25,772 nt of DNA from a virus, in IMG/VR virus record IMGVR_UViG_3300029990_000049, positions 1-25,772 of that record; one strand, given 5' to 3'. Within the stretch, counting starts at the first letter, position 1. Every line of letters starts with the position of its first letter. Positions 9,407 through 23,972 of this stretch are shown here, piece by piece. A model generated the notes under the pieces. The model searched no databases and was not told where the DNA came from. It saw only the letters and a program-made list of their open reading frames with translations. The position numbers were made by a program, and so were the translations under genes.

Positions 9407-11695
9407 CTAGTTACCATCCTTCTTAGGAGGAGTCTGTTTAGCCAACACTCCGTAATAAGTTTTAGGGAGGTTAAACGTGTCATCAGGCGGCGTCAACAAC
9501 CCGTAGTAAGTCCTTGGGATGTAGAACGTATCGTCAGGTGTGCCCAAAATGCCGTAATACGTGTCAGGTATTATGAAGTAGTTAATTGGGTCGTCATTAC
9601 CAATAGAACGGATGTACGAGTTATCTTGAACCTTAACAGTGTATTCAAAAGAGTGCTTGAACTTGTCAACACTCTTAATGAAGTTGTTATCTTTCAGCTT
9701 GATGGTCGAAGCCATGTCCGCTTCAATAGTAGGCCTATCTGGAAACAAAAAGGCCAATACAGATTCAAGTTCTCGGATACCGTCCATGTTGGATTGGACG
9801 TTAAGCATCACGTTTCCAAAGTCAGCATCAAGACTATTGCCAGGGCCTGTCAGTTTACTGTCACCAACTGACACTTCGTTTGGAAGTTCGGTAACACCGA
9901 TCTCATCAGCCATCTCTTTAATGAAATGGATGGTGTACGAAGAGAGCCGAGACATGATATCGATAAGGTCGCTTTGCTTGACCCGCATGTTTGGTTGGAT
10001 ATTGGTATCCCAGCCAGTCACACGTTTAAAGATATCCCAGGCAAACGTTTTGCACTCAGCCGCTGAGTAGTCAGAGAAGTCCAGGTTGTAATCACGCAAC
10101 AACAGATCGTACTTGGTATATTCGCCAAGCTTAACGAAACCTGAATCGTAAACTGTCTTAGTGGCGTTTTTAACTCGAGCACGTTTATTCAGATCGTAAA
10201 ACTGACTGTACATCTTCTTGTGTTTCCACATCGCCTCATAAACCTCAAAGGCGTACTGGACAAGATAGTCAGGGGCTACAAAGTTAGCAACTGGAAACCA
10301 AATGTTGCGGATATCGTAGGCAAGGTATTCGGGGTAAATAAAGTTCTTACCGCCAGCCTCATAGACGTCTGCAAGACTAGGTGGCTTAATTCGCATCACG
10401 TTCTGGTAATAAACTGGACCAATGTCAACAGGGTGGAACCCATTGCTATAATCGACCAGATACCGCCAAATGTGATACGCATCGGCAACTGTCATCTTGA
10501 TTTGTTTGCCAGTCTTTGGATCAGACACGACAACACGACCAGTGAACTTGTTATTGCCAACCAGATAGATCCATTCGTTATACACAACAGACATCAAAGT
10601 ATCAGCATGGCGGTTGGTGTAGTCACGCATGCTAGATTCTAAGACTTTAGTAGGTAGTTCCGAGTGAAGACTGTACTTACCACGTTCTAAGGCGTCCTGT
10701 TGATAGATGGCCGTTTGATCGTAGTTGTCCCTGGCTAACAACTGCTGTTTAAGAATAATCTGTTCAGTGGTGTTGTAGGTGGGTTCCCGGCCGTAGTCCT
10801 CAATGAGATTAAGGTTAAGACGGCGATACAACGGAGTTGGACTAAGATCTTCCAGCTGCGTTGCGGTACCTTCCACCATGTCAAACTTAGCCAGCGGAAT
10901 ATTTGCAATAGTCAGCAAATTCTCCATCAGCTTATTAAACGTCAACGTCTGCCCGGGGTTATTCTTAATCCAGGCAATGTTACGAAACAACCACATGGTT
11001 TGTTCGCGGTTAAGACTATTTTTATATTTGGAGAAATCCCCGTAGGAATCAATGTGGCTCCAGATATAAAAGTCATGACTGTGCCGAGTGTACATGTCTT
11101 CAATGCGAATTGTGTGAATTGCTTTGATGACGTCAGCCATAAGCAAACGGCTCATGGTAGGGAGAAACAAGTTATCCGTACCGATATATTCGTTGTTAAA
11201 AAGCTGACTGACTTCAGACTTAATAAAGTTTTGAAGCTTTGGAATTAACTGGTCCTCGTTCCACAATACTAACTTTTCATTGTACCGAAGAATCTTATAG
11301 TCATCGGCGGGAATCGTTTCCGCATAAGGGATCGGGGAGAGTATGCCGCGTATCAGTGTTGGTTGAGCTGGATAACGTTCGGTAAGCCGTTTAAACCAAT
11401 AACCGCCCTTAGCGTATTCACGGAAAGTAATCAGGTGAACACGCAGGTTCTCTTTGTTAAAGACGATTTCTTCGTCGTTATCCAGAGAGTTAACGGTCAT
11501 TGGTACGTCGGTCTCATGATAGTCCCCGTTAAGGTTCATGTAGTACCGCCAAGTAGCTTTATCTTCTTTTACAATATAACCCACACGCTCTAGGGCCTGG
11601 TTATATCGTTTTGCTAACGCCTCATTTTTGATAACCATGGTTCTTGCAAGGGAAAAGATGTCCCTGAAGTACCTGTCTTTATCAGCATTATTCAT
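9407..11695 (-). CDS. Large structural-type protein with three C-terminal TYYG repeats
   Basis: ATG 11695 opens a 762-residue frame, the first gene of a minus-strand run. The body is rich in Tyr, Asn, Asp and Trp, without signal peptide, membrane helix or enzymatic motifs; this is typical of large jumbo-phage virion proteins. Near the C-terminus two related segments, KLKDNNFIKSV and KVQDNSYIRSI, are followed by three exact-length 17-residue units (residues 707-757): FIIPDTYYGILGTPDDT, FYIPRTYYGLLTPPDDT and FNLPKTYYGVLAKQTPP. The same core occurs in the frameshift tail of the capsid gene. By position (between portal-like and tail-like genes) it may be a head-tail connection or tail component, but the family is not recognised. 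The start lies 25 bp from that of the divergent portal-like gene. Confidence 0.65.
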   Translation of the reverse strand: MNNADKDRYFRDIFSLARTMVIKNEALAKRYNQALERVGYIVKEDKATWRYYMNLNGDYHETDVPMTVNSLDNDEEIVFNKENLRVHLITFREYAKGGYWFKRLTERYPAQPTLIRGILSPIPYAETIPADDYKILRYNEKLVLWNEDQLIPKLQNFIKSEVSQLFNNEYIGTDNLFLPTMSRLLMADVIKAIHTIRIEDMYTRHSHDFYIWSHIDSYGDFSKYKNSLNREQTMWLFRNIAWIKNNPGQTLTFNKLMENLLTIANIPLAKFDMVEGTATQLEDLSPTPLYRRLNLNLIEDYGREPTYNTTEQIILKQQLLARDNYDQTAIYQQDALERGKYSLHSELPTKVLESSMRDYTNRHADTLMSVVYNEWIYLVGNNKFTGRVVVSDPKTGKQIKMTVADAYHIWRYLVDYSNGFHPVDIGPVYYQNVMRIKPPSLADVYEAGGKNFIYPEYLAYDIRNIWFPVANFVAPDYLVQYAFEVYEAMWKHKKMYSQFYDLNKRARVKNATKTVYDSGFVKLGEYTKYDLLLRDYNLDFSDYSAAECKTFAWDIFKRVTGWDTNIQPNMRVKQSDLIDIMSRLSSYTIHFIKEMADEIGVTELPNEVSVGDSKLTGPGNSLDADFGNVMLNVQSNMDGIRELESVLAFLFPDRPTIEADMASTIKLKDNNFIKSVDKFKHSFEYTVKVQDNSYIRSIGNDDPINYFIIPDTYYGILGTPDDTFYIPRTYYGLLTPPDDTFNLPKTYYGVLAKQTPPKKDGN
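9425..9577 (-). repeat. Three tandem 51-bp units encoding the TYYG repeat
   Basis: Three adjacent 17-codon units share F-x-(I/L)-P-x-T-Y-Y-G-(I/V/L)-L. Codons for the invariant residues differ between units (TAT TAC GGC, TAC TAC GGG, TAT TAC GGA). The repeat is therefore old and kept at the protein level, not a recent DNA duplication. Confidence 0.9.
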
Positions 11696-11720: not shown

Positions 11721-14700
11721 ATGTCGTATAGATCTAGGTCCACTACGGTGGGCAATACCCCCGTAGATATCACTCAGGTACGGCAAAACTTTAGTAACAT
11801 GCCTACGTATATTCGGTCCACTCTTCGCAACGCTGTTCCTCTTAATGGCGTGTCACCAGAAAAAGGTGATGTTGGCGGTGTAGAAACCGTTAACCAATAT
11901 AAGTTACAGCGTCTCAGTGACGTTTTAAGCAACAACATCAATGCGGTGACTGACCTACGTGCCATTACGCCGTATGTGGACAAAGCAGAGCTGATTTGGG
12001 ACACTATCTTGCTTTACCCTAACGGTAAGCAGGACAAGATTCTTACGTACAGCACGCTGCCTTCCAAGCTGAAGAACGTCGCATTGCATACAGAACTGCT
12101 TAAGGTGTGGGAAGAATACTTCACCAACGACTATAAGATCGAGGAAGATCTTAGCAAAATGATTAAGGATATCCTCTGGAATACGGGGAGTTACGTCCTT
12201 TTTAATCTTAGTCGTCCTGGTCTTGATTACCTGATTAATGGTAGTGAAGTTGACCCTAAACACAATTCTGAAAATGAGCCTCTTGACGCCAAAGCTAGAG
12301 AAGGTGCCGAGGCTTTCCAGCTTTACGAGCGTAAGTTCCGTGAAGCAGCTATGAACGAGTTTAACAACTCGTTTGCAAACGACCCTACCAATAACAAGGT
12401 AAAGGTTCGTAACCTCGGTAAATTCATTAAAGACCCTAACAAGAAAGCCGCCCCGTCTGTTATTAACGGTTTGGAGCGCTTGCTTAAGGATGCCGGGTCT
12501 GTTCAGGAAGACGAGTATCGTCTGTTTGATAATGAGTTTGACCCTTCCAACGATATTGATATCACAATTACGGATAACCCTGCTTGCTTGTTCCTACCTC
12601 GCTTTCACCAGAAGCGTCGAGAAGAGCAACTGGGTAGTGTAGTTGGTCAAGAAAACATCAACATGATGGTGGAACGCGCTCTTAAGAAAGACAAAGATCG
12701 CGATCCAATCGGTCCTAACGACACAGACAAAAAAAGAAAGAAGGCTGCTCCATCTGACGCGACTACCCAAAACCTGGATTCGCATCAGGTTGCTGAGATT
12801 GCGCGGGAACTTTACCCAAGCCGAAACATTCGTTCTCAATCGATGCAGTTTGTTAAAAGCATTGATACTCTGTCAGTAGCACCTTACGGTCGTGGGTTGG
12901 TTTTCCATATCCCTAGTGAGGCATGTATCCCTATTCATCGTAATGGTGTACGCCGGGCGAATCCGGATATCATTGTTCTGATGGATCGTGATACTGGTGA
13001 GTTCCTTAAGAACACTACCGACCCTGAGTACTATCAGTCCACTTCAGCTGTTAGAGGCGGGCTCAGTAACAAGAACAAGACTGGTAGCGAGAACGCTATC
13101 ATCTCTAGTCTTCGTACTGTTCAGTCTGGTAAACCATGTGATTTCGACATGCGTGAGTTTGCAGACATTAACCGGTCTAACCTCATTCGTCAGTTCACGT
13201 CGGCTGTTATTAGCGACAAGGCTGATTCGGTAAGCATTACTCTGGACGAGGAAGTCAACAAGATCTTCTTGTCTCGTATGTTTGCTAAACAGGGTGTTCG
13301 TTGCTTGTATATCCCTGGTGAGGCTATTACCTACATGGCGCTGAAGTATAGCGAACTTGGTACCGGTCAATCGCTTACACAACTGGCTAAGATGCATATT
13401 GCCCGTCTGGCTGCTTTTGACGTCGCTGACACCCTGGCTAACCTCGAGGCTGCGCAACCCCATACGTTGATGAACATCACGCATGGTAAAGAGGATGGGG
13501 ACCCTGAGAACACGGCTGCTATTGCACGGGCTTCGTTCTACGATAACAACCCTGGTCTTCATAGTCTGATTTCCTCTGCACAGCTTTCAGTACCAAGCAT
13601 TGTGGAATCGATGCGTAACTCGTCGTTGACTATTAAAGTTAACGCCGGTGATAACCCATTGGTAGCCGTTCCTGAAATCGACATGCAGCATATGGAGAAG
13701 AACCACTTTAAACCGGTGGATGACACTTCGCGTCAAAAAGTTATGAATGACATTGCTAACTACTTCCACACTCCTCGCAGTTGGTTGGACGTTAGTGACG
13801 ATTCTAATAACTTCAAGATTGAAGCAATTACTGAACACGACATGGTTGTTAACCAAGCTGCTAACTGGCAGGATACCTTGGCTGACTTCGTTGTGGACTT
13901 CATGCGTAAACATACTCGTGTAAACGAGCCTCTGTTGAACGCATTGGTCGAAGTAATTGTAAAAAACAAGAAGCTTTGGAAGCCAGAAGGTAGTAAAGAA
14001 ACTATCGCTGGTGATGAGGGTCAAGTTGTAAACATGTTGTTGGCTGACTTCTTTACTGCGGTTAAGGTTAGTTTCCCTATTCCGTCCAGCATTGAGTCTA
14101 CTGACAAACTGAAGAACCAGTTGGAAGCTGTTGATGCACTGGTTACTAAGTGGATGGAGATTGCAAGTGGTGGGGCTATCCTCACTGACATCGCTACCGG
14201 CCTTGGATTTACCGATGGCAAGGCAAGCGGTGAAACAATCCTCAAACATGTTAAAGCTTACTTTTACACCGAAGCATTTAAACGTTACAACATTCCAATG
14301 CCATTTGACGATGTTGTCAATGATGGTAAGAGTGGTGGTATTGCTTCTCTGGTACATGGTATTATTCATCAGCAGGCTAACTCGCAAGAGTTCTTTGTTC
14401 AATACATGACCGAGAAACTCAAGAATGATAAATCATTCCTGAAGTCTCACAAGGCTTTGCTGGATAAGCTGCGCAGCGACATTGATGAAGCCAGCGGCGA
14501 AGAAGAAGAAACTCAAGATGGTGGTTTAGACGGCGAGACTAGTCTGACTGGTGATGTTGAACCAGGTACTGGTGGCGATAACCTCGACGTTGATGCAGAA
14601 CCTCCTGCTGAAGAAGAGGAAACTGAGGAGACTGGTGATACCAAACCAGGTACTGAAGAAGGCGAAGAAACTGGTACTGATGAACCCGCTGACGACGGTA

Positions 14701-14759
14701 ACTCTGGTAGCAGTGATCCAACTTCTCCAGACTACAACCCTTGGAAAGGCAAAAAATAA
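11721..14759 (+). CDS. Putative portal protein with acidic C-terminal tail
   Basis: ATG 11721 follows AAGGGAATTC. The 1012-residue product fits the portal plan seen in large myoviruses. It has an N-terminal helical part with a long alpha/beta core, a charged linker near 325-345 (DKKRKKA), the segment YIPGEAITYMALKYSELGTG near residue 529, a long helix after it (AKMHIARLAAFDVADTLANL), and FHTPRSWLDVSDDSNNF near residue 681 followed by more helices. From about residue 921 the tail is very acidic and repetitive, with two GDxxPGT copies, ending in PDYNPWKGKK. In phiKZ and 201phi2-1 the portal lies a few genes from the major capsid gene, as here. A portal forms the dodecameric DNA channel at one head vertex. 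A different large head protein is the main alternative. Confidence 0.6.
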   Translation: MSYRSRSTTVGNTPVDITQVRQNFSNMPTYIRSTLRNAVPLNGVSPEKGDVGGVETVNQYKLQRLSDVLSNNINAVTDLRAITPYVDKAELIWDTILLYPNGKQDKILTYSTLPSKLKNVALHTELLKVWEEYFTNDYKIEEDLSKMIKDILWNTGSYVLFNLSRPGLDYLINGSEVDPKHNSENEPLDAKAREGAEAFQLYERKFREAAMNEFNNSFANDPTNNKVKVRNLGKFIKDPNKKAAPSVINGLERLLKDAGSVQEDEYRLFDNEFDPSNDIDITITDNPACLFLPRFHQKRREEQLGSVVGQENINMMVERALKKDKDRDPIGPNDTDKKRKKAAPSDATTQNLDSHQVAEIARELYPSRNIRSQSMQFVKSIDTLSVAPYGRGLVFHIPSEACIPIHRNGVRRANPDIIVLMDRDTGEFLKNTTDPEYYQSTSAVRGGLSNKNKTGSENAIISSLRTVQSGKPCDFDMREFADINRSNLIRQFTSAVISDKADSVSITLDEEVNKIFLSRMFAKQGVRCLYIPGEAITYMALKYSELGTGQSLTQLAKMHIARLAAFDVADTLANLEAAQPHTLMNITHGKEDGDPENTAAIARASFYDNNPGLHSLISSAQLSVPSIVESMRNSSLTIKVNAGDNPLVAVPEIDMQHMEKNHFKPVDDTSRQKVMNDIANYFHTPRSWLDVSDDSNNFKIEAITEHDMVVNQAANWQDTLADFVVDFMRKHTRVNEPLLNALVEVIVKNKKLWKPEGSKETIAGDEGQVVNMLLADFFTAVKVSFPIPSSIESTDKLKNQLEAVDALVTKWMEIASGGAILTDIATGLGFTDGKASGETILKHVKAYFYTEAFKRYNIPMPFDDVVNDGKSGGIASLVHGIIHQQANSQEFFVQYMTEKLKNDKSFLKSHKALLDKLRSDIDEASGEEEETQDGGLDGETSLTGDVEPGTGGDNLDVDAEPPAEEEETEETGDTKPGTEEGEETGTDEPADDGNSGSSDPTSPDYNPWKGKK

Positions 14760-21543: not shown

Positions 21544-21635
21544 ATTCCAAACTACCTTTATTAGTATGTCCTACCTTGATAATTTAGGTTTGAAATATTC
21601 TTTGTGATTAGCAAAATGCAAAAAAAAGGAATCAA

Positions 21636-21667
21636 CTACCCCACTCCCTTTTAAAGGAGTGAGGTAG
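21636..21667 (-). terminator. Rho-independent terminator downstream of the major capsid gene
   Basis: On the minus strand CTACCTCACTCC pairs with GGGAGTGGGGTAG (12 or more pairs including G-T) around a TTTAAAA-type loop. It is followed by TTGATTCC and a run of seven or more T (21621-21627). It separates the capsid transcript from the coiled-coil protein gene. Confidence 0.85.
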
Positions 21668-21696
21668 AAGAGACCAGATGCAACTAACCTAAACGC

Positions 21697-21786
21697 GCCT
21701 CATCGACAGTGTCAAGAGGGGTACTAGGCAGGCCCCTCTAACAGACCGTAGTAGGTCGATGGAAGGATGAGGCCTACGGGTTTCCC
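21697..21786 (-). promoter_or_regulatory. Candidate -1 frameshift signal at the end of the capsid gene
   Basis: The heptamer GGGAAAC (21786-21780) fits X XXY YYZ, and its phase matches the capsid frame (gcG GGA AAC CCG TAG). After a 6-base spacer, GCCTCATC (21773-21766) can pair over 8 bp with GATGAGGC (21704-21697). The loop between contains a second hairpin, AGAGGGG (21739-21733) with CCCCTCT (21721-21715), and a possible CCGTAG/CTACGG pairing that competes with the spacer. Spacer length and stem are as in known -1 sites. Folding is judged by eye only. Confidence 0.7.
21724..21780 (-). other. Predicted 18-residue frameshift tail of the major capsid protein
   Basis: After a -1 slip on GGGAAAC, translation continues in the -1 frame as PVGLILPSTYYGLLEGPA to TAG at 21726-21724, giving a 749-residue form in place of 732. 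The stretch has no start codon of its own. Its core LPSTYYGLL matches the three 17-residue repeats of the 762-aa protein at 8 or more positions, with different codons. That match is the main reason to believe this frame is translated. A recent indel or a sequencing error that split one longer gene is the alternative. Confidence 0.72.
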
Positions 21787-23972
21787 GCTTCGATGGCGCC
21801 TTGGATGCCAGCCAGAGCTGGAGCCAGACCTTCGATGGCGATGCGCTGTTTTGCCAGCTTGGTCAGCAGACCGTTATCACCCAGGAACTCTGCGGCGTCA
21901 GTGATCTTCAGCGAACCGATGATCGGGTTGAGCGCCCAGTGTTTGTAGGTAGGGATGGTCATGACCACACCGAAGTCCTGCTGATCACGAGTCACGTTAC
22001 CTTGTACAACGATGTTCTCTTTCGAGACAACGACGCCGACACCGCCCAGTGGGTTGATGTAATCGGAAGTCGAATCGTTTTGGGTAACGATCAGGATCTC
22101 ACCGATCTGGCTGTCGAAGTTGGTTTCGACGGCTTTCATGGTGGTCAGAGGACCCAGGGTACGAGCGTCGCCCAAACGGAGCAGGAAGCGGCACAGGTTC
22201 TGGTGAGCGATGATGTTCCACTTCGGAGAAGTAGCACCGCCGTATTCGGCGATCGCGGCGATACCGGACTTGGTAGTCAGGGCCGAAACGATGTCGCTGA
22301 TTTCGTTGGTGAACACGGCGCAGACTGCTTCCAGCACACCGGTGCTGTCTTGGGTCGATACGACGTCGGCCAGGGTGATCTTGCGGTTTACTGCGGCAGC
22401 TTGCACGTAGTGCATGCCTGGCAGGACGTTGGAACCCTGGTTGTTCGAGACCACAGCATGGCCGTCGATGGAGGTGATGTACGCCAGGTGCTCAGCAGCC
22501 ATGTCGAACGCTTTACGCGAGCACTGGTTGTTGATCGCCACCGACATTTGCTCGATCGCGTAGTCCAGGGAGCCCTGGTTCACGTCTTGCTTGTCGATTG
22601 GGTATTTCACAGACACCGGGTCGCCACGTTTGACGGACAGGTGCTTGTCGGCATCGAACACTTCGATACGGTAGCCGAAGTTACCGCGCGAGTTGTTGGT
22701 CACGTTACCGGTGATTTCGATACCGGATACGGAACCGTTGGTCAGGGTGCGGAACAGTGATTTCTGAGCGTCATCAGCGCGATCACGAGTGATCACGTTA
22801 CCGGTTGGGATGTGCTGGAGAGCAGTGATCGAAACCTGGCCGCCGTTCAGGCGCATGACGTTCTTTTGACGCTGGTAGTTGCCGTCCATCGACACGTCCA
22901 GCAGAGGGCGGTAGCCAGCTGCTTTCAGATCGGCGAACAGGGTCTCACCAACTTCCAGGCCGTCTTTGTCCTGTACAGCAAAACCGTTGTGACGGTTCAG
23001 CAGGATGGCCATTTTGCGGTCATCGGACGATTGGCCGTTCGAAGTCGGGATGAAGGTGTTGTTCGACATCGCCTTGGTGTTGATGAAGAACGTCTTGACA
23101 GTGCCCTTGATAGTAGCGGTCAATTGCAGAGTCTGACCGGTGAGCGAGTTGGACTCGATCTCGTCGGTAGCGGTGTACGGACGCTGGCCAGGGGTTTCGC
23201 ACAGGCCCAGGAAGTTCGGAATGACGCTCGGAACTTTCAGGAAGCTGGTCAGGTGGTTTTCGCGGCCCAGGGCATCAGCTTCCATGTAGGTAGCGGTCCA
23301 TGGGGTACGGTCGGCGGCTGGAACGAACAGCTCGCGGGTGTCGTCGGTGTCCGACTCAGGGTACACAGGGTGTACAGCCAGGGCGGATTCGGCGAACATT
23401 TTGCCGGAACGCAGCAGACCGAAGATCGGTTGCAGTTCGGAGGCGGACTGCCAGGCGCTGTTGCCGTAAGCGTAAGTACCCAGACCAGCGGCACGAACCT
23501 TCATCAGGACGCCTTCGTCTTCGTAACGAACGGTCAGGGTGGCGAACAGTGCTTCGGCGCCAGGAGTCTGCAAGTGGCTCTGGGCGTTGAGGGCCATGTT
23601 CAGAGCTTTGACGGTGGTTTCCGAGCCTTCCCAGTTCTGCATCGAGAAGCCTTCCAGGCCATCGACGGTACCGTAGAAGCTTTCGGTACGTTCAACGATG
23701 TCTTTCAGCTCGCTCGGAGCAATGTTGGTGGTACGGCCGAACGAGGATTGGAACGCGGCGAAGTTCTTGTCGTTCAGACGAGTGGCCAGCATGCCATTCA
23801 GCGATTGGCTCTCAGCGCCTTGAACACGAGCCAGGTCGAACTTGCTCGAGAAGCCAGAAAAGTTTTCCTGGCCTTGCACCGCGGTCAACGATTCGTTCTT
23901 CAGTGCATCAGCGATCAGCTGAACAAGGTTACCCTCGTTCTTGAGACCCATCTTAATCTGTTTGTAAGCCAT
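21774..23972 (-). CDS. Major capsid protein (phiKZ gp120-like)
   Basis: ATG 23972 follows AAGGAATTCC. The 732-residue zero-frame product is close in length to phiKZ gp120 (about 747). It has a charged N-terminal region, an Ala/Gly/Gln-rich middle, a long beta-rich body without membrane or enzyme motifs, and a helical end. The gene is visibly richer in G+C and uses a narrow set of codons (CTG, GGT/GGC, AAC, GAC, CAG) unlike its neighbours. This is usual for the most abundant virion protein and explains the long antisense open frames. In phiKZ the capsid protein is cut near residue 163 by a prohead protease; GAE at 138-140 is one candidate site here, unproven. A single-gene transcript is suggested by the upstream AT-rich leader and the downstream terminator. 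A frameshifted longer form is predicted. Confidence 0.85.
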   Translation of the reverse strand: MAYKQIKMGLKNEGNLVQLIADALKNESLTAVQGQENFSGFSSKFDLARVQGAESQSLNGMLATRLNDKNFAAFQSSFGRTTNIAPSELKDIVERTESFYGTVDGLEGFSMQNWEGSETTVKALNMALNAQSHLQTPGAEALFATLTVRYEDEGVLMKVRAAGLGTYAYGNSAWQSASELQPIFGLLRSGKMFAESALAVHPVYPESDTDDTRELFVPAADRTPWTATYMEADALGRENHLTSFLKVPSVIPNFLGLCETPGQRPYTATDEIESNSLTGQTLQLTATIKGTVKTFFINTKAMSNNTFIPTSNGQSSDDRKMAILLNRHNGFAVQDKDGLEVGETLFADLKAAGYRPLLDVSMDGNYQRQKNVMRLNGGQVSITALQHIPTGNVITRDRADDAQKSLFRTLTNGSVSGIEITGNVTNNSRGNFGYRIEVFDADKHLSVKRGDPVSVKYPIDKQDVNQGSLDYAIEQMSVAINNQCSRKAFDMAAEHLAYITSIDGHAVVSNNQGSNVLPGMHYVQAAAVNRKITLADVVSTQDSTGVLEAVCAVFTNEISDIVSALTTKSGIAAIAEYGGATSPKWNIIAHQNLCRFLLRLGDARTLGPLTTMKAVETNFDSQIGEILIVTQNDSTSDYINPLGGVGVVVSKENIVVQGNVTRDQQDFGVVMTIPTYKHWALNPIIGSLKITDAAEFLGDNGLLTKLAKQRIAIEGLAPALAGIQGAIEAGNP

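Follow-up and report, generated by a model that had tools for sequence, protein, structure and literature searches.

Extension of phage capsid proteins by frameshifting or readthrough is known in kind. In phage T7, a −1 frameshift in the major capsid gene yields gp10B, a minority, longer version of the capsid protein gp10A, and in phage Q-beta, readthrough of a UGA codon yields A1, a minority, extended form of the coat protein. In addition, Fraser and co-workers have reportedly described Ig-like domains that are added by frameshifting to capsid and tail proteins of phages. Here, we analyzed a 25,772-base stretch of viral DNA (the window) whose major capsid gene carries the sequence signature of a −1 slip near its 3′ end, as in T7. 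Whereas the gp10B extension comprises about 50 residues, the tail in the clade of the window is a linear motif of 12–19 residues. Unlike in T7, that motif recurs at the C-termini of other virion proteins, and the capsid belongs to the phiKZ family. As with the Ig-like domains, recoding would equip some of the virion subunits with an accessory module, but the tail is not a folded domain, and the short peptide would instead recruit a separate protein.

The capsid proteins of phiKZ (gp120; PF25620; PDB 8y6v), EL, RisingSun, and FishSpeaker belong to the same family as that of the window. PhiKZ and its relatives have been studied heavily, and several of their virion protein structures have been solved, yet the capsid records examined annotate the gene to its first stop only, without any extension. 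The open-access literature that we searched, which leaves out most subscription journals, contained no report of capsid recoding in phiKZ-like phages; a preliminary description made from the sequence alone had likewise known of none. As far as this literature goes, what is new is a short, shared, docking-type motif and the recourse of related clades to two different modes of recoding.

The 3′ end of the capsid gene in the window and in related phages

The major capsid protein gene of the window (732 aa) occupies positions 21774..23972 on the minus strand, with its 0-frame stop codon, TAG, at 21774–21776. Its product qualifies as a member of PF25620 PhiKZ_MCP (1.7e-129, 433 bits, against a curated cut-off of 27), matches the major head protein family phrog_3231 (4e-161), and in tblastn searches matched Erwinia phage RisingSun at 56% and Pseudomonas phage EL at 51%. 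The gene ends in GC[G GGA AAC] CCG TAG, where the bracketed heptamer (21780..21786, minus strand) has the slippery form X_XXY_YYZ and is in phase with the 0 frame. From there the −1 frame encodes the 18-codon tail PVGLILPSTYYGLLEGPA, followed by a TAG stop at 21724–21726 (tail and stop, 21724..21780, minus strand). Inside the tail lies the core docking-type motif LPSTYYGLL (21739..21765, minus strand), which matches C-terminal motifs of two other families of virion proteins. The preliminary description had reported the capsid gene, the in-phase heptamer, the −1 tail with its stop, and three copies of the motif in a 762-aa protein; these claims held and all coordinates were confirmed. It failed in one detail, having placed the heptamer two codons before the stop when a single sense codon (CCG) intervenes, and it missed a stem-loop.

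This stem-loop (21697..21773, minus strand), a putative stimulator of the slip, begins 6 nt past the heptamer and consists of an 8-bp basal stem, GCCUCAUC/GAUGAGGC, enclosing inner hairpins. Its minimum free energy is −32.5 kcal/mol, with a z-score of −2.5. Among five representative phages, the spacer between heptamer and stem measures 5–7 nt and z ranges from −2.5 to −3.7. The mean structure z was −3.0 across 32 loci vs. −0.66 in random windows, and predicted structure was weak at three loci (L141, L146, and L147).

The preliminary description had suggested aligning the capsid gene 3′ ends of relatives. A profile built from five capsid proteins retrieved 39 IMG/VR loci, 37 of which extend beyond the capsid stop; a scan of genome contigs yielded no match. 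All 37 loci encode a −1 tail of 12–19 residues that carries [DNYFS]YGx[LV] and ends in a stop, and codon changes among the loci conserve the peptide. A canonical in-phase X_XXY_YYZ heptamer, with 0–3 sense codons ahead of the stop, is present in 30 of the 37 and takes the form CCCAAAC, GGGAAAC, AAAAAAC, or CCCAAAT. The heptamer and a tail with the same motif were also found in Shewanella phage FishSpeaker, which is outside the 37-locus set. Some loci are near-duplicates (32 loci represent 29 distinct core sequences), and one, L125/L001, encodes a capsid protein identical to that of the window and does not constitute independent evidence. In five complete genomes of relatives, an in-phase heptamer occurs within the last four codons of 16 of the 931 ORFs of at least 200 aa; five of these 16 are the capsid genes themselves, giving a background of about 1.2% (11 of 926 non-capsid ORFs).

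The remaining seven loci (L135, L136, L138, L139, L140, L151, and L156) have a non-canonical slip site and retain both tail and stem-loop. Their capsid genes end in GTA AAC CCG TAA (four loci) or GTA ACC CCG TAA (three loci). Counted from the codon before CCG, the stem is predicted to begin after 9 nt in five of the seven. A slip displaced by one codon, onto A_AAC_CCG or onto the stop-adjacent CCG, would shorten this spacing to 6 nt; the slip site of these loci is unresolved. The next capsid relatives, those of VP4B, PDCC-1, Miami, phiKp_32, AhC3_1, and OBP, have neither heptamer nor tail, so the capsid fold does not depend on the tail.

As a separate observation, a conserved AAACCTAcATTATC-like element lies 5′ of the next gene in the window (21574–21599, minus strand) and in the same place in EL, RisingSun, FishSpeaker, and L003. 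It is likely a promoter for the phage's own RNA polymerase.

Evidence for translation of the −1 tail

Codon differences show that the −1 extension is under protein-level selection. Among the 29 distinct tail cores, single-base codon differences were synonymous:nonsynonymous at 910:394 in the −1 frame, whereas the two alternative frames gave 267:759 and 211:762. Although such pairwise counts lack phylogenetic independence, the frames compared lie on the same DNA. Loci L001 and L002, whose capsid proteins are 98% identical, differ at none of the 88 nt across heptamer, tail, and stem and at 17 of the 300 nt immediately upstream.

One alternative is that the block behind the stop is an RNA regulatory element, such as an attenuator or a stability hairpin, in which the open −1 frame is incidental. 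The strong stem-loop that overlaps the tail speaks for it. Against it, the codon bias is confined to the −1 frame, in-phase heptamers occur far above the 1.2% background, the peptide motif is shared with other proteins through differing codons, and a separate terminator-like hairpin is found farther 3′ of the window capsid gene, at about 21637–21668. This alternative is all but excluded, and the −1 codon bias by itself rules out an element that acts only as RNA.

A second alternative holds that the tail belongs to a separate small protein that is started within the capsid gene, and an ATG, GTG, or TTG does precede the motif in the −1 frame at seven of the 32 loci. The other 25 loci have no such codon, so that frameshifting is the sole route to the tail there. 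Moreover, in five loci, RisingSun and FishSpeaker among them, the −1 frame opens a mere 10 nt ahead of the capsid stop, which places the slip at or next to the heptamer there. A separate tail ORF is therefore ruled out for most loci, and there is next to no room left for this explanation.

Chance as the origin of the tail was rejected on the basis of the −1 codon bias, the heptamer background, and the distribution of the motif across six frames (see below). The reading of the capsid gene end as a programmed −1 frameshift, which the preliminary description had advanced, was supported by every computational test proposed for it, with the reservation that seven loci have a non-canonical slip site. 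We consider −1 recoding at the end of the capsid gene almost certain. This assessment is based on comparative evidence, untested at the bench, and the extended product is inferred. The published mass spectrometry (MS) table for RisingSun lysate lists gp83 only as annotated, and a search of the tail frame is not described (PMC6034870).

Recurrence of the motif in other virion proteins

Outside the capsid tail, the motif (I/L)PxT(D/Y/N/F)YGxL is found almost only at the C-termini of the gp128 family and of an appendage-type protein of about 200 aa. The gp128 homologue in the window is a 762-aa virion structural protein (9407..11695, minus strand; phrog_3222, 3.6e-213) that matches PDB chains 9xqs_C PHIKZ128, 36za_sR, and 11lx_Bh. 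Three motif copies lie in its C-terminal region (9443..9571, minus strand): IPDTYYGIL at 9545–9571, IPRTYYGLL at 9494–9520, and LPKTYYGVL at 9443–9469. The gp128 gene adjoins that of the portal, and the phiKZ record lists gp128 as a head protein. In the window, the gene for the portal protein (phiKZ gp129 homologue; 11721–14759, plus strand) and that for the gp128 homologue are immediate neighbors on opposite strands.

A six-frame search of five complete genomes (G001, G003, EL, RisingSun, and FishSpeaker) with the pattern P.{0,2}[TASPY][DNYFE]YG.[LIVM] returned 20 matches, every one of which is in a capsid −1 tail or near the C-terminus of a member of the two families or of a related protein. 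They comprise the five capsid −1 tails, the C-terminal regions of gp128 homologues from three phages, the C-termini of paralogues in the ~200-aa family, and a 583-aa RisingSun protein. The earlier claim that the motif match exceeds chance thus held. The DNA form of the motif matched 46 times in 16 further genomes vs. two matches with a reversed control, and the readable matches among the 46 fall in the same three places except for two that are internal and unrelated and one or two that could not be placed. The gp128-like proteins of many phages bear several copies; no motif was found in the gp128 homologues of G003 and FishSpeaker. Motif variants partly co-vary within a phage, as in EL, where the capsid tail and the gp128 homologue both read PANYGRL.

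The ~200-aa family corresponds to phrog_18233. Its gene directly adjoins a phage GroEL-like gene in G001 (106522–107136; L028:6522–7136), G003 (143941–144570), and EL (150985–151626), and a GroEL-like gene is close to it in six further contigs. AlphaFold predicted a confident domain for the ~200-aa protein (pLDDT 92.5), with a motif-bearing end that lacks regular secondary structure. Foldseek matched this domain to further jumbo-phage proteins, among them RisingSun gp197 and portions of 1,100–1,400-aa proteins; a search of the same model against the PDB gave no significant match. Two RisingSun members of the family, the motif-bearing gp206 and gp207, were detected by MS of lysate, and the EL counterpart of gp207 was likewise retrieved (PMC6034870). 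The RisingSun motif proteins lie in a cluster of virion structural genes. The 583-aa RisingSun virion protein combines an N-terminal domain common to the motif proteins with a domain of repeated ~300-aa virion proteins. We interpret the ~200-aa protein as an appendage adaptor, a role that is inferred.

These observations bear on the main rival to an appendage hook, namely that the recoding is real and the tail serves as an assembly tag, for instance for chaperonin-assisted folding, for initiation at the portal vertex, or for placement in the prohead. In its favor are the GroEL-like genes beside or close to the ~200-aa gene, the adjacency of gp128 to the portal gene, and the record of phiKZ gp128 as a head protein. 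Against it, chaperonin genes are present in VP4B, Miami, and OBP as well, without a capsid tail, and the RisingSun motif proteins reside in a structural-gene cluster and share their N-terminal domain with the 583-aa virion protein. An assembly tag remains possible. The chaperonin as the unique partner of the motif is weakened because those three phages encode one without a capsid tail.

A search for partners by co-occurrence in eight genomes produced only a short, mixed, and uninformative list. One group of candidates, the ~300-aa RisingSun virion proteins (with an FN3-like start and a lectin-like domain, both recognized by eye), was not supported as a universal partner because RisingSun queries found no EL homologue. 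These proteins form a cluster at 173947–183901 of RisingSun and have repeated domains containing LLRGxWxFGYxGEV. In the published MS table, RisingSun gp200 and gp204 rank higher than the tail tube protein.

Predicted UGA readthrough in the phiKZ clade and a possible docking role

The frameshift of the EL/RisingSun type is absent from the capsid gene of phiKZ itself. That gene (gp120; L196:18269–20512) ends in UGA and is followed in frame by AGKGYRYLENGTIRYLEDGNARKLEE. UGA followed by an in-frame tail was also found in phiPA3, PS119XW, Phabio, 201phi2-1, Psa21, Noxifer, and Viktualia, making eight phages with phiKZ, and in seven IMG/VR loci of the phiKZ clade, some of which are copies of the eight phages. 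All phiKZ-clade capsid loci examined (L196–L203 and L224–L230) use UGA. The extension is conserved, spans 26–30 codons, and consists of RYLEDG-type repeats, R(Y)LEDGxxRYxEDGxxRxLE. Its synonymous:nonsynonymous ratio of 165:86 vs. 53:168 and 27:175 in the other frames indicates protein-level selection. Based on this comparative sequence evidence, we infer that UGA readthrough is likely in the phiKZ clade, although it is untested at the bench. The arrangement parallels the Q-beta coat protein and A1; A1, however, gains a long domain, whereas the phiKZ tail is short and resembles the C-terminus of another phage protein, gp143.

PhiKZ gp143 is a 177-aa virion structural protein with RYLEDG-type repeats at its C-terminus. 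When all of phiKZ was searched with a regular expression for the repeat, the only matches were the capsid extension, the gp143 C-terminus, and one unrelated 16-aa ORF. The gp143 homologues of all eight phages end with a similar repeat, and homologues were found in 69 records, all of Pseudomonas phages. Gp143 and the ~200-aa family are alike in size, motif position, and order of predicted elements. An alignment between them covered a plausible region, with homology that was not significant, and the structure model for gp143 was poor (pLDDT 50). Sister clades thus likely use different recoding for the same outcome, with the products in both being inferred.

We propose the following mechanism. 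A ribosome positioned on GGA-AAC would slip back by one base onto GGG-AAA, aided by the stem-loop 6 nt downstream, and would read on into PVGLILPSTYYGLLEGPA. A minority of capsid subunits would then carry a C-terminal tail of 12–19 residues. The motif would be recognized at several sites on the virion by a single partner, most probably a fibre or decoration module, and the recoding would cap the number of capsid subunits that bear the hook. The phiKZ clade would reach the same arrangement through UGA readthrough, with a tail that matches the gp143 C-terminus. The sequence evidence covers the frameshift signal, the conserved coding tail, the shared motif, and the parallel UGA case. Production of the extended proteins and their incorporation, docking by the motif, and the identity of what it docks are all inferred, with no peptide, reporter, or cryo-EM data on the extended capsid protein. 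Taken as a whole, a frameshifted minority of capsid subunits and a motif recognized by one partner is a likely arrangement.

The docking or decoration role had been an inference in the preliminary description and remains one; the product, its stoichiometry, and the partner have not been shown. Two observations strengthen it: the motif also terminates the gp128-like and ~200-aa proteins, the latter with RisingSun members detected by MS of lysate, and capsids of the phiKZ clade seem to acquire a comparable tail through UGA readthrough. Sequence comparison supports docking well, and we consider it more likely than not that the motif is a docking peptide. We stop slightly short of favoring a fibre or appendage module of the head as its partner, which is unidentified. 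A bolder reading, for and against which the case seems to us balanced, is that C-terminal docking peptides make up a code used across the whole virion of phiKZ-like jumbo phages, with the same peptide placed on a limited share of capsid subunits by −1 frameshifting (EL/RisingSun) or by UGA readthrough (phiKZ). The number of fibre or appendage modules displayed by the head would then be set by translation rather than gene dosage, and the clades would have evolved or swapped signals and peptides for one function.

Alternatively, the tail might be translated without having any partner, the motif having spread by duplication as a neutral by-product. No partner has been identified and some gp128 homologues lack the motif, as this explanation would have it. 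Against it stand the strong purifying selection on the tail codons, the retention of the tail in 37 of 37 loci, and the analogous phiKZ-clade system with its different motif, which together make a neutral by-product very unlikely.

Should the recoded capsid form exist, a conserved component is missing from proteomic and structural models of phiKZ-like heads, and tails that are flexible and low in copy number would average out of icosahedral maps. The shared motif offers a direct handle on the attachment of appendages to jumbo-phage heads. Related clades in which two forms of recoding serve one purpose would also provide an unusual test case for the question why the copy number of a capsid feature is set by translation instead of by an additional gene.

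A further set of paralogues in the ~200-aa family carries a different end repeat (RFNGQFRYDGTLTY, IYDGTYNYDGTITY). They are encoded at 163313–163927 in EL, 125816–126433 in G003, 84690–85361 in G001, and 179457–181163 in RisingSun. This repeat is reminiscent of the phiKZ readthrough tail and could possibly represent a second docking code.
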